Origin: a virus
Strand: one strand, 5' to 3'
Length of the DNA: 25,265 bases
Virus record (IMG/VR): IMGVR_UViG_3300020183_000422
Coordinates: 1 to 25,265 of that record
The translations under genes and the position numbers were made by a program. A model generated the notes under the pieces. That model was not told the origin of the DNA. It was given only the letters and a program-made list of their open reading frames with translations, and did not search any database. Below, piece by piece: positions 987 to 5,279 of this stretch (within the stretch, counting starts at the first letter, position 1; each line of letters starts with the position of its first letter).

Positions 987-1438
987 CCGAGAAGAACCTT
1001 GATGGAGAAATCATCAAGGACTGGATTGTAGAAGATTACAAGATGCCGAAAATCAGTCCTTTTGATTTCGTGAATGCCATTAATTACACCAAAGAAAATT
1101 TGATGGTGGATGAGTGGAGTGAGAAGCAGTACAATTCGTTTGTTGTGAACAAGAGTTTGAGTTTCGGGGCTGACACAGTACACATAGCCAACGAAATGAA
1201 CAGTCGTCCGCATTTGGACAAGCGCCTCCAGTTTGACTTCCTTATAAATACCATTAGACCTCGAAAGAGGTATAACAAATGGTTGAAGGCTGATGAAGTC
1301 CAAAACCTTGAAGTGGTGAAACAGTATTATCATTACAATACTGAGAAGGCACAACAAGCTTTGAGGATCCTATCACCTGACCAAATAAATACTATTAAGG
1401 AACGTTTGAACACAGGTGGCTTAACAAATGGCACATGA
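983..1438 (+). CDS. 62: Clamp loader small subunit (T4 gp62-like)
   Basis: This is probably the non-ATPase subunit that completes the clamp-loader pentamer with gp44. At 151 residues it is shorter than T4 gp62 (187), as in many marine relatives. The sequence has no nucleotide-binding motif, as expected. The start overlaps the gp44 stop as ATGA, and its stop overlaps the RegA start by 11 nt, so gp44, gp62 and RegA form one coupled unit. The assignment rests mainly on position between gp44 and RegA plus the general size and the N-terminal DWIVEDYKMPKISPFDFVNA region, which resembles gp62 of T4-like phages. A TATAAATA string inside it at 1243-1250 is treated as chance. Confidence 0.85.
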   Translation: MTEKNLDGEIIKDWIVEDYKMPKISPFDFVNAINYTKENLMVDEWSEKQYNSFVVNKSLSFGADTVHIANEMNSRPHLDKRLQFDFLINTIRPRKRYNKWLKADEVQNLEVVKQYYHYNTEKAQQALRILSPDQINTIKERLNTGGLTNGT

Positions 1439-1853: not shown

Positions 1854-1879
1854 GTACTTGATTGTAGGGGTGTTAGGAG
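1854..1879 (+). repeat. Left arm of 26-nt inverted repeat flanking hsp20
   Basis: This arm is the reverse complement of 2379-2404 at 24 of 26 positions. The two mismatches (1859-1860 against 2398-2399) are both G-U pairs in the + strand transcript, so the whole arm can pair in RNA. It sits between the regA stop and the hsp20 leader hairpin. Pairing does not extend outward past 1853/2405 or inward past 1880/2378. Confidence 0.9.
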
Positions 1880-1894
1880 TTATCATTAACCTTA

Positions 1895-1913
1895 GATACG
1901 CCGAAAGGGTATC
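1895..1913 (+). promoter_or_regulatory. Leader hairpin with GAAA tetraloop upstream of hsp20
   Basis: GATAC (1895-1899) pairs with GTATC (1909-1913) and CC (1901-1902) pairs with GG (1907-1908), closing a GAAA loop of the GNRA type. G1900 is a single bulge. The hairpin ends about 20 nt before the AGGAGG ribosome-binding site. A role in hsp20 translation or mRNA stability is inferred. Confidence 0.6.
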
Positions 1914-1942
1914 ACTAACACATTCGCTCGACAGGAGGAATT

Positions 1943-2368
1943 ATGACACGTACCTATACTTTCAACACATCCAGCATTGGTGGTCCATGGGCTATTGGTT
2001 TTGATAGTCTATGGGACCGTTTACACAACATTGAAACGGTGAATAGTTCCAGCAACTATCCCCCATACAACATCATCAAACATGATGCTGAAAACTGGAG
2101 CATCGAACTTGCTGTGGCTGGCTTCAAGCGCAGTGAGTTGGATATTGAATTGGCTGAAGGTGTTCTCACCATCTCAGCTAAGGCTGAATCCACTGATGAA
2201 CAGCAATATGTTCACCGTGGTTTAGCCAAGCGTGCGTTCACTAGAAAGTGGACACTCGCAGATGACGTAGTAGTTCGTGATGCTGCTTTGACTGACGGTG
2301 TGCTTTCCATCAAGTTGGAACGCATCATCCCAGAAGAAAAGAAGCCACGTAAGATTGACATTTCGTAA
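1943..2368 (+). CDS. hsp20: Small heat-shock protein (Hsp20 / alpha-crystallin)
   Basis: This is a 141-residue holdase-type chaperone of the small heat-shock family, which binds unfolding proteins without ATP. The alpha-crystallin domain covers roughly residues 35-135. Visible signatures are VAGFKRSELDIELAEGVLTI, the consensus A-x-x-x-D-GVL element near ALTDGVLSIKL, and a C-terminal Ile-x-Ile (IDI) that normally docks into a neighbouring subunit. Hsp20 genes are common in T4-like marine phages and are thought to help virion assembly. A strong ribosome-binding site (ACAGGAGGAA, 1931-1940) precedes the ATG. The cistron is enclosed by 26-nt inverted arms and has its own leader hairpin, so its expression may be controlled at RNA level. 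Confidence 0.93.
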   Translation: MTRTYTFNTSSIGGPWAIGFDSLWDRLHNIETVNSSSNYPPYNIIKHDAENWSIELAVAGFKRSELDIELAEGVLTISAKAESTDEQQYVHRGLAKRAFTRKWTLADDVVVRDAALTDGVLSIKLERIIPEEKKPRKIDIS

Positions 2369-2378
2369 TTAAGTAGTC

Positions 2379-2404
2379 CTCCTAACACCCCTACAATTGA
2401 GTAC
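2379..2404 (+). repeat. Right arm of 26-nt inverted repeat flanking hsp20
   Basis: This is the partner of 1854-1879. It begins 10 nt after the hsp20 stop and ends 3 nt before the ATG of the next gene, so a formed helix would cover that gene's initiation region. The overlapping heptamer TCCTCCT (2377-2383) is also complementary to the hsp20 ribosome-binding site AGGAGGA (1933-1939), giving a competing pairing. Confidence 0.9.
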
Positions 2405-2407
2405 ATC

Positions 2408-2710
2408 ATGGCTTTACTTTGCATCAAAACGCTTCTAGGCGAAGATTTAATTGGTGATGTTGAGATACGTGACAACACCGTAGACATTGACACACCACTC
2501 ATGGTGATGATTGTCCCAAACGAGAAGGGACAATACAGTGTGGGGCTGGCTCCCTACATGATTTTCTCAGCCACCCGAAAGTTCACGTTTGAAAAGAATC
2601 ATATCATTCTGTTCACGGAACCTGCTGATGAAATTCGGAATCAATATCATAACATCACAGGAAAAGGTATTGTTCTTCCCACCAGACCAAAACTTGAATT
2701 AGTTCCATAA
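2408..2710 (+). CDS. Conserved T4-like phage protein, possibly Sm-like fold
   Basis: This is a 100-residue protein with no catalytic motif that I can see. The pattern LCIKTLLGEDLIGDVEI followed by an IDTPLMVMI strand and LAPYMIFSA is the style of a small beta-barrel (Sm/Hfq-like) protein, and a similar short protein is common next to replication genes in cyanophages. An RNA- or protein-binding role would be inference. There is no good Shine-Dalgarno sequence, only a weak GAG at 2399-2401 that lies inside the right inverted-repeat arm, so translation may depend on coupling or on opening of that helix. The gene ends just before the gp43 terminator/promoter element. Confidence 0.75.
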   Translation: MALLCIKTLLGEDLIGDVEIRDNTVDIDTPLMVMIVPNEKGQYSVGLAPYMIFSATRKFTFEKNHIILFTEPADEIRNQYHNITGKGIVLPTRPKLELVP

Positions 2711-2783: not shown

Positions 2784-5279
2784 ATGAAGAAGTTCTATAC
2801 TAATGTGTTGCAATTTGGTAACAAGTTGCTGGTGCGAGAAGTTCGTAATGGAAAAAAGGACAATCACAAGGTGGAGTTTCGTCCCACCATGTTCATCAAG
2901 TCCAAGAAGGAATCCAAGCACAAAAGTTTGTTTGGTGAAAATCTGGAGCCCATGAAGTTTGGTGACATCAATGATGCCAAAGAGTTCATGAAGAAATACA
3001 AAGAGGTGGAGAATTTTCCCATCTTCGGCAACACCTCCTTTGCCTATCAATACATCACAGAAGAATATCCAGAAGAGGTGGACTATGATATTAGTCAACT
3101 CACCATCTTCACTATTGACATTGAAACTGCCTCAGAGAATGGATTTCCTAGTGTGGACAATCCCATTGAAGAGGTGTTGTTGATTACTGTGCAAGACAAC
3201 ATCACCAAGAAGATTACTACATTTGGTGTCAAGAAGTTTGATGTGCAGAACATTCAGAAAAATTTCGAGTATGTGAAATGTAAGGATGAGGCTGACCTTC
3301 TTCTTACATTTCTTCGTTTCTGGCAGATGGCTGCTCCTGATGTGGTGACAGGGTGGAACACACAATTGTTTGACTTGCCTTATCTCATGGTTAGAATCAA
3401 GCGAGTATTAGGTGAGGATCGTGTGAAGGATCTGTCACCGTGGCGCATTGTGAATGAGCGACCTGTGACTGTGAATGGGCGTGAATATCTCACAGCCGAC
3501 ATCTATGGCATCAGCAACTTGGATTATCTGGACTTGTACAAGAAGTTCACCTATTCAGCACAAGAAAGTTACAAGTTGGATTACATTGCTCAACAAGAGT
3601 TGGGTCGTAGAAAGTTGGAACATAGCTACGAGACATTCAAGGAACACTACACAGAAGATTGGCAATCATTTGTGGAGTACAACATCGTGGACGTGGAGCT
3701 GGTGGATGCCTTGGAAGACAAGATGAAGTTGATTGAACTGGTCATCACTATGGCCTATGACGCCAAGTGCAACTTCACAGACATCTTCTCGGCAGTGAGA
3801 ACCTGGGATTGCATTCTACACAATCATCTCTGGGACAAGAACATCATTGTGCATCAGAAAAAGGAACATGAAGGCAGAACCATTGCTGGTGCCTATGTGA
3901 AAGAACCCACGCCTGGCAAGTATGATTGGGTGGTGGGTTTCGACGCCGCATCTCTGTATCCCAGCATCATCATGCAATACAACATGAGTCCTGAGACCAT
4001 GATGGTGGGTATCACGGCTGACGCCAGTCCAGAAATTCTGTTGCAAGGAGATGTGAATTTCCATGACTTCTTGAAGAACAAGAATTTTGCCATGGCAGCT
4101 AACGGCTACTGCTACACTCACAAGCATCAGGGATTGTTTCCTGAAATCGTGGAGAAGATTTTCACAGAACGTGTGTTCTACAAGAAGAAGATGATTGAGG
4201 CACGAAAAGAGTATGAGAGAACCAAGGATGTGAACCAGGTGAAGCTCATCAGCAAGTACAACAACATTCAGATGGCCAGAAAAATTCAATTGAACAGTTT
4301 GTATGGTGCCTGGGCCAATCAATACTTTCGATTCTATGATGACAGAATTGCCGAAGGCATCACTCTGACTGGTCAGTACATCATTCAGCATGTGGGTCGA
4401 GCCTTGAATGAATATCTGAACAAGGTGTGTGAGACAGAAGGTGTGGAGTACACATTCTATTCTGACACAGACAGTTGCTACATCACATTGGATCATTTGG
4501 TACAGAAACACTTCTCACATCTGGACAAGAACAAAGTGGTGGATGTGATTGACAAGTTTTGTAAAGACAAGGTGGCCAAGGTGTTGACAGATGCCTGCAA
4601 CCATATCATGCACGCCACAAATGGCTATGCTTCCAAAATGGAATTCAAACGAGAGGTGATTGCCGACCGTGCCATCTGGGTGGCCAAGAAGCGATATGCC
4701 TTGAATGTGTATGATAGTGAAGGTGTGCGATACAAGGAACCCAAGTTGAAGGTGCAAGGATTGGAGATTGTCAGAAGCAGCACGCCTGGCAGTGTTCGAC
4801 AGTATCTTCGGGATGCTGTGAAGATGGCATTGACCTGTACACAAAAAGAAATTCAAGACTTTATTGCTGATTTGGAACAGAAGTTTCATCAGATGACACC
4901 AGAAGAAATTGCCTTCCCTAGAAGTGCCAACAATCTGGAGAAGTATCATTCTGGTTCAACCATCTACGTCAAGGCCACGCCACTTCATGTACGAGGTGCT
5001 TTGTTGTACAACCATTATATCAAAGTGAAGAAATTGGACAAAAAGTATGAAATAATTAAGGAAGGAGACAAAGTGAAATACTTGTATCTGAAAGAGCCTA
5101 ATCCCATCAAGGAGAACAGCATCGCCTTCACAGTCAATTTACCAAAAGAGCTTGACTTACACAAGTATGTTGATTATCATACTATGTTCGACAAAAGTTT
5201 CTTGGAGCCTATGAGAACCATTCTGGATTGTCTGGGATGGAGTACAAATAAAGTTGCCACATTGGATGACCTATTCTAA
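2784..5279 (+). CDS. 43: DNA polymerase, family B (T4 gp43-like)
   Basis: This is the replicative DNA polymerase with proofreading 3'-5' exonuclease. Exo I is DIE at residues 112-114, the same numbering as T4 D112/E114. Exo II lies in VTGWNTQLFDLPYL and Exo III in YNIVDVELVD. Polymerase motif A is FDAASLYPSII with Asp near 387, motif B is KIQLNSLYGAW, and motif C is YSDTDSCY with Asp near 561 and 563. KKRY follows in WVAKKRYAL. The C-terminus LDDLF resembles the sliding-clamp-binding tail. The length of 831 residues is shorter than T4 (898) but typical for marine relatives, and the gene appears intact with no intein or split. A strong ribosome-binding site and its own promoter precede it. Confidence 0.97.
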   Translation: MKKFYTNVLQFGNKLLVREVRNGKKDNHKVEFRPTMFIKSKKESKHKSLFGENLEPMKFGDINDAKEFMKKYKEVENFPIFGNTSFAYQYITEEYPEEVDYDISQLTIFTIDIETASENGFPSVDNPIEEVLLITVQDNITKKITTFGVKKFDVQNIQKNFEYVKCKDEADLLLTFLRFWQMAAPDVVTGWNTQLFDLPYLMVRIKRVLGEDRVKDLSPWRIVNERPVTVNGREYLTADIYGISNLDYLDLYKKFTYSAQESYKLDYIAQQELGRRKLEHSYETFKEHYTEDWQSFVEYNIVDVELVDALEDKMKLIELVITMAYDAKCNFTDIFSAVRTWDCILHNHLWDKNIIVHQKKEHEGRTIAGAYVKEPTPGKYDWVVGFDAASLYPSIIMQYNMSPETMMVGITADASPEILLQGDVNFHDFLKNKNFAMAANGYCYTHKHQGLFPEIVEKIFTERVFYKKKMIEARKEYERTKDVNQVKLISKYNNIQMARKIQLNSLYGAWANQYFRFYDDRIAEGITLTGQYIIQHVGRALNEYLNKVCETEGVEYTFYSDTDSCYITLDHLVQKHFSHLDKNKVVDVIDKFCKDKVAKVLTDACNHIMHATNGYASKMEFKREVIADRAIWVAKKRYALNVYDSEGVRYKEPKLKVQGLEIVRSSTPGSVRQYLRDAVKMALTCTQKEIQDFIADLEQKFHQMTPEEIAFPRSANNLEKYHSGSTIYVKATPLHVRGALLYNHYIKVKKLDKKYEIIKEGDKVKYLYLKEPNPIKENSIAFTVNLPKELDLHKYVDYHTMFDKSFLEPMRTILDCLGWSTNKVATLDDLF

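Follow-up and report, generated by a model that had tools for sequence, protein, structure and literature searches.

In a clade of freshwater T4-like phages, the hsp20 gene is enclosed by two inverted arms which very probably represent a real and conserved RNA structure. On the basis of sequence and predicted folds, the helix formed by these arms is best explained, with moderate confidence, as a gate that makes translation of the gene following hsp20 dependent on the promoter used; the product of this gene is, as judged by structural modeling, an Sm/LSm-like protein. The stretch of DNA analyzed here (the window) is an IMG/VR virus record of 25,265 nt, of which one strand was read, and it harbors a T4-type replication cluster in the order gp44-gp62-regA-hsp20-ORF-gp43-uvsX-gp41. 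The features of the hsp20 region are collected in Table 1.

Table 1. Features in and around the hsp20 region of the window
Feature	Position	Strand	Sequence or pattern	Remarks
T4-type late-promoter octamer	1243..1250	+	TATAAATA	Within gp62; upstream of both arms
5' arm	1854..1879	+	GTACTTGATTGTAGGGGTGTTAGGAG	regA-hsp20 gap; overlaps hsp20 promoter
Predicted sigma70-like hsp20 promoter	1858..1886	+	TTGATT-N17-TATCAT	In 5' arm
5' arm conserved core	1863..1879	+	TGTAGGGGTGTTAGGAG	
5' hairpin	1895..1913	+	GATACGCCGAAAGGGTATC	At predicted hsp20 transcript start; conserved
Leader heptamer	1915..1921	+	CTAACAC	hsp20 leader; invariant in clade; complementary to GTGTTAG of 5' arm
ROSE-like hairpin	1922..1941	+	AUUCGCUCGACAGGAGGAAU	Masks hsp20 Shine-Dalgarno; bulged G, UYGCU motif
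hsp20	1943..2368	+		141 aa; looped out by predicted helix
Anti-Shine-Dalgarno-like motif	2378..2382	+	CCTCC	Can pair with hsp20 Shine-Dalgarno in RNA without 5' arm
3' arm	2379..2404	+	CTCCTAACACCCCTACAATTGAGTAC	hsp20-LSm gap; core 2379-2395
Weak Shine-Dalgarno of LSm-like gene	2397..2401	+	TTGAG	TGAG invariant; pairs with -35 end in read-through RNA
Sm/LSm-like gene	2408..2710	+		100 aa; phrog_527; start site coverable by helix

Both arms are intergenic and lie 499 nt apart, and their pairing over 26 nt comprises 24 Watson-Crick pairs, one T-G and one G-T, the latter two being wobbles in the + strand RNA. This count, given previously in an initial annotation of the sequence, was borne out and lies far above chance: the longest exact inverted arm at a separation of 100 to 1000 nt in the window is 19 nt, and in 200 simulated versions of the window (first-order Markov model) the longest was 16 nt, with none reaching 18 nt. 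The two arms have 18 nt exactly in common, and an 18-nt core, when up to three mismatches were allowed, was found in the window at only these two places (expected number, 0.00). Folding of positions 1840 to 2420, a check which the same annotation had called for, formed all 26 pairs with a z score of -7.9, and the helix does end 3 nt upstream of the following ATG (position 2408), as had been claimed. A correction concerns the gene to which that ATG belongs, which is not gp43 but the 100-aa open reading frame; gp43 starts at position 2784. The interpretation of the two wobbles also requires revision. They had been read as a sign that pairing in RNA is selected, and the corresponding T-G and G-T differences between the arms do persist in at least 21 of the 24 variants; these two conserved outer-end wobbles are, instead, probably kept because the 5' strand must remain TTGA (the -35 element) and the 3' strand TTGAG (the ribosome site).

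Relatives were gathered by searching IMG/VR with the arm, the hsp20 protein, the leader and the 3' arm. Within the clade, hsp20 identity to that of the window ranges from 62 to 100%, and both arms flank hsp20 in every clade contig of IMG/VR in which the hsp20 region is intact and complete. Relatives without arms, or with changes that fail to compensate one another, had been named in advance as findings that would speak against an RNA helix; the intact clade contigs were all found to carry the arms, and the changes within these proved compensatory. The third codon positions of hsp20, which served as a neutral yardstick, average 54% identity, and the arms are nearly fixed. Outside the clade, cyanophage-type hsp20 loci (48 to 58% identity) lack the arm sequence, and their duplex z scores are mostly near 0 with a lowest value of -3.5 (L107), compared with -3.4 to -9.1 in the clade; the two ranges overlap at their edges, and it is the absence of the arm sequence, rather than the duplex z score alone, which separates the two groups. 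Isolated phages with the same leader were absent from the collection searched, and an exact 20-mer scan of bacterial and archaeal genomes returned 0 matches. A scan with the leader motif produced many further unrelated matches that lacked the arms, and these were discarded on context.

The alignment was composed of 24 distinct arm pairs, from which L015 and L003/L066 were left out on account of deletions. In L015 (positions 3901 to 4281), hsp20 is shortened by a deletion and both arms are kept, while in L003 (reverse strand) and L066 the end of hsp20, the 3' arm and the start of the LSm-like gene are lost and two reading frames are fused; these deletions may represent assembly errors.

When a 24-bp helix was imposed on the alignment, 97.3% of the 566 cells paired, a proportion which fell to 41 to 52% when the partner strand was slid by one to three columns as a control. 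Changes on both sides of the helix were observed at four pairs (12 cells), and the covariation score of 0.104 compares with 0.074 ± 0.004 for shuffled alignments, being attained in 0 of 500 shuffles, a result that is not to be read as a probability since the counts are drawn from related sequences. Paired changes include A-U to G-C in L070/L124/L140/L161 (with a one-sided form in L065), G-C to A-U in L069 (with G-U forms in L137, L050 and L053) and U-A to C-G at the -35 end of the helix. The heaviest evidence for an RNA helix in the aligned sequences is provided by two separate co-deletions, in which one G of GGGG and one C of CCCC were lost together in L049 and, again, in L140/L145/L161, lineages which are separate on the regA+hsp20 tree. 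Both co-deletions, as well as the change from A-U to G-C, were located on this tree by eye, and a tree-based assessment of independent paired changes, itself underpowered, returned three independent starred pairs for one column pair. Within the 17-bp core, one-sided substitutions are of the G-C to G-U or A-U to G-U type with a single exception (U-U in L070); such changes would create mismatches in DNA, and the feature under selection appears to be an RNA helix.

The helix is not uniformly regular across the clade. A 1-nt deletion in the core of L062/L065 introduces a 1-nt bulge, C-A or U-U mismatches occur at the -35 end in some lineages, and the end adjoining the ribosome site is mispaired in the L124/L140/L161 subclade and in L070. 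The continuous helix measures 26 bp in the window and approximately 16 to 17 bp in L070, L140 and L161.

Assignment of the open reading frame downstream of the 3' arm is based on a profile match to PDB 3BY7 (E value of 1.3e-5) and on an AlphaFold model (pLDDT of 87) for which Foldseek returned 3BY7 as the top match (TM score of 0.84 to 0.89 by target length), followed by Lsm/Sm proteins. The 3BY7 protein is alike in fold and length, although sequence identity is only 18 to 20%, and RNA binding by the phage protein is putative. Homologs of the LSm-like protein (36 to 96% identity) are encoded directly after the 3' arm in all examined contigs that extend so far, with the ATG situated 38 to 41 nt past the hsp20 stop codon and at a near-fixed position relative to the 3' arm, whereas the distance to gp43 varies from approximately +760 to +2489 as measured from the hsp20 ATG. 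In the same region, the sequence TAATTAAGTAG at positions 2366 to 2376, which runs from the hsp20 stop codon onwards and lies outside the helix, is almost invariant in the clade and could be a site at which a protein, such as the LSm-like protein or RegA, binds the RNA.

The predicted hsp20 promoter, which the initial annotation had not noted, conforms, as a motif only, to a sigma70-like pattern which across the clade reads TTGAYT-N16/17-TAnnnT; the TAnnnT element is located 16 to 17 nt after the -35 element in 20 of 20 distinct promoter variants, and its middle triplet assumes 12 different forms. RNA from this promoter would start at approximately position 1893, and the conserved leader hairpin begins 7 to 11 nt after the -10 TAnnnT element in most variants. 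In a 178-kb relative (L042), 25 TTGACN-N16/17-TATnnT sites lie on the coding strand and 3 on the opposite strand, with 0 to 2 sites for a reversed-pattern control, and this strand bias suggests that this phage group uses sigma70-like promoters. Phage-type promoters of the form TTGACAAA-N17-TATATT occur in the same relative, and the hsp20 promoter represents a weak version of these sites. A strong sigma70-like promoter, TTGACA-N17-TATATT, precedes gp43 in the window at positions 2723 to 2751 and is of the type counted on the coding strand of L042. In L124/L140/L161 the -35 element of the hsp20 promoter is eroded, with the arms still present. A minus-strand promoter in the 3' arm was considered and rejected, as upon inspection the 3' arm showed no counterpart of the -35/-10 pattern present in the 5' arm.

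Because the hsp20 promoter is located within the 5' arm, RNA initiated at this promoter would be without the 5' arm and would, therefore, be unable to form the helix. No terminator-like site was found on the + strand between regA and the start of the LSm-like gene, and RNA from upstream should thus cross both arms. The same should apply to late RNA, since the late-promoter octamer in gp62 is upstream of the arms. This octamer is kept upstream of hsp20 in all clade members for which enough upstream sequence is available, in most of them at homologous codons, even though it requires the rare Ile codon ATA (16 of 188).

It is proposed that RNA from upstream, arising either by early read-through over gp44-gp62-regA or late from the gp62 octamer, would carry both arms, so that the 3' arm would become locked in a helix of 16 to 26 bp over the weak ribosome site of the LSm-like gene, with hsp20 looped out and its own start left free. 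RNA from the hsp20 promoter, in the absence of the 5' arm, would leave the LSm-like start open. Use of the promoters, formation of the helix in infected cells and lowered translation of the LSm-like gene are all elements which we infer from sequence and predicted folding. The predicted cost of opening the LSm-like start (-18 to +6; 25°C) is 4.4 to 8.1 kcal/mol in the own-promoter RNA and 17.5 to 35.4 kcal/mol in the read-through RNA in 19 of 19 relatives; in the window, it declines from 30 to 13.8, 8.1 and 6.0 when successively later RNA starts are taken, first within the 5' arm and then beyond it, and it amounts to 30 versus 5 if the hsp20 coding sequence is held open as though covered by ribosomes. 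These costs follow from the helix and so do not represent independent evidence of regulation, although they illustrate its strong reach onto the start site. Among the roles previously suggested for the helix, switching off the downstream gene provides the best fit, with the LSm-like gene and not gp43 as its object, while specific evidence for the excision or stabilization of an hsp20 mRNA was not obtained.

Several observations count against gating. The hsp20 promoter is weak, and the arms outlast the eroded -35 element in L124/L140/L161, a persistence which gating alone does not require. The helix end at the ribosome site is mispaired in places, and to this may be added the bulge in L062/L065 and the C-A and U-U mismatches at the -35 end. 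Furthermore, even an open ribosome site would be a weak one in the LSm-like gene, and the helix can form only after a loop of 500 nt has been transcribed. A temporal elaboration of the gate can be offered only tentatively: early RNA from the hsp20 promoter would yield the LSm-like protein, and late RNA from the gp62 octamer would fold over hsp20 and shut the LSm-like gene off, with hsp20, under its ROSE-like leader, remaining on and the 5' arm and the hsp20 Shine-Dalgarno sequence competing as partners of the 3' arm.

The principal alternative, which we consider somewhat unlikely, is that the duplex is a site for RNase III or a similar enzyme, cleavage of which would separate the regA, hsp20 and LSm RNAs without any direct role in ribosome access. 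The continuous 26-bp duplex of the window, the placement of the arms exactly in the two intergenic gaps and their survival beyond an eroded promoter would all suit such a site. An RNase III site would be expected to hold an uninterrupted duplex of some 20 bp or longer; the helices of L070, L140 and L161 are short for this enzyme, and neither the invariant spacing of TTGAG and ATG nor the strict association with the LSm-like gene would be needed for cleavage. The combination seen in L124/L140/L161 (an eroded -35 element, a helix of approximately 16 to 17 bp and a mispaired end) clearly favors neither gating nor cleavage. It is less probable still, and in our opinion doubtful, that the 3' arm serves mainly to control hsp20 itself, with CCUCC repressing the own-promoter RNA by pairing with the Shine-Dalgarno sequence GGAGG, and capture by the 5' arm freeing hsp20. 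C2378 lies outside the helix and is nevertheless invariant among variable neighbors, which hints that pairing of CCUCC with the hsp20 Shine-Dalgarno sequence may matter, and the mean probability of this pairing in own-promoter RNA reaches 0.4 to 0.95 in L024, L039, L046, L049, L053, L069 and L140 (25°C). The pairing is, however, weak in the window (0.16) and in L070 (0.05), the costs of opening the hsp20 start are nearly equal in the two RNAs, and a translating ribosome would clear the region of the stop codon.

Explanations at the level of DNA fare worse. The arms could be a pair of inverted protein-binding sites, engaged in operator function or looping, which change in concert by following one protein; the location of the 5' arm between the -35 and -10 elements, a typical operator position, and the 18 nt exactly shared accord with this reading. 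We regard it as very unlikely, given that the one-sided differences in the core preserve RNA pairing, that the long-lived T-G and G-T differences would be unexpected for DNA sites, that the window contains no third copy (at up to three mismatches) and that in the 178-kb relative exact copies of the 10-nt core are confined to the two arms. Inverted arms around one gene might, finally, mark the boundaries of an hsp20 cassette that is mobile or invertible. This scenario, exceedingly improbable, was rejected on the grounds of fixed synteny and orientation: the order gp44-gp62-regA-hsp20-LSm is constant in all relatives examined, and 0 inverted orientations were present among exact 18-mer matches. 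Target duplication was likewise not seen, and the arms are limited to the clade. The initial proposal that a + strand RNA helix, as opposed to transposon ends, is the selected feature is sustained by the compensatory changes and the fixed synteny.

The proposed gate has a close counterpart in the T4 genes e, soc, 49 and I-TevI. There, the ribosome site is concealed by a helix in transcripts that read through from upstream, whereas transcripts begun at a promoter within the 5' strand of the helix lack that strand and are translated (PMC3014915). A T4-type phage, a helix over a ribosome site, a promoter in the 5' strand and conservation in relatives are common to both cases, the helix and the promoter being predicted ones in the clade. 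In contrast to the local helix of T4 e and I-TevI, the arms of the present clade are 499 nt apart and surround another gene. The T4 promoter, moreover, is the octamer TATAAATA directly upstream of the controlled gene, whereas the promoter in the clade's 5' arm is of the sigma70-like type and has hsp20 as the first gene that it serves; as the late octamer of the clade precedes the two arms, the timing would be the opposite of that in T4, with the late RNA closed. In the RNA phage MS2, long-distance pairing hides the replicase start and is disrupted when the coat gene is translated, the upstream strand being situated in a coding region. The resemblance resides in long-range pairing within a polycistronic RNA by which the start of a downstream gene is, or in the clade would be, concealed, while in the clade both strands are intergenic and opening would depend on promoter choice. 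A long-distance structure concerning the RdRp is also mentioned in PMC9894550.

The arms thus look like a long-range form of the known T4 on/off mechanism that loops over a whole cistron. If this is true, the origin of a transcript would decide whether the next gene is read, by means of a helix spanning a complete and separately translated gene; the principle known from T4 gene e would be extended to the scale of an operon, and equivalents could be sought in other phage or bacterial operons as intergenic arms flanking whole cistrons. Three RNA-related elements, namely, RegA, a probable RNA thermometer and an Sm/LSm-like protein, would be encoded together in one short stretch.

The probable thermometer resides in the hsp20 leader, where UCGCU is paired to the hsp20 Shine-Dalgarno sequence in a 7-bp hairpin with a bulged G. 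This arrangement agrees with the definition of the ROSE motif, in which UYGCU lies opposite the Shine-Dalgarno sequence with a bulged G (PMC9450479), and resembles the ROSE thermometers of small heat shock genes (PMC9450479, PMC3669281). The likeness concerns the leader and not the arms, and the Rfam ROSE models gave 0 matches to the hsp20 leader up to an E value of 5; other Rfam families yielded nothing relevant in the region. The stem of the 5' hairpin also changes in pairs (GACAC/GTGTC and GTTAC/GTAAC), and the CTAACAC heptamer is a possible transient partner of the 5' arm, as suggested by their complementarity. Cyanophage hsp20 leaders contain a similar GCC-N4-GGG hairpin, and in some cyanophage-type loci a promoter-like sequence, a hairpin and a Shine-Dalgarno region follow one another in similar order without the arms. 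Leaders of the cyanophage type carry UUGCU before AAGGAGAU, and phage hsp20 genes may, therefore, be under the control of an RNA thermometer more widely. In cyanophage S-CREM1 (L116, positions 827 to 925), an annotated glnA riboswitch is located between regA and hsp20.
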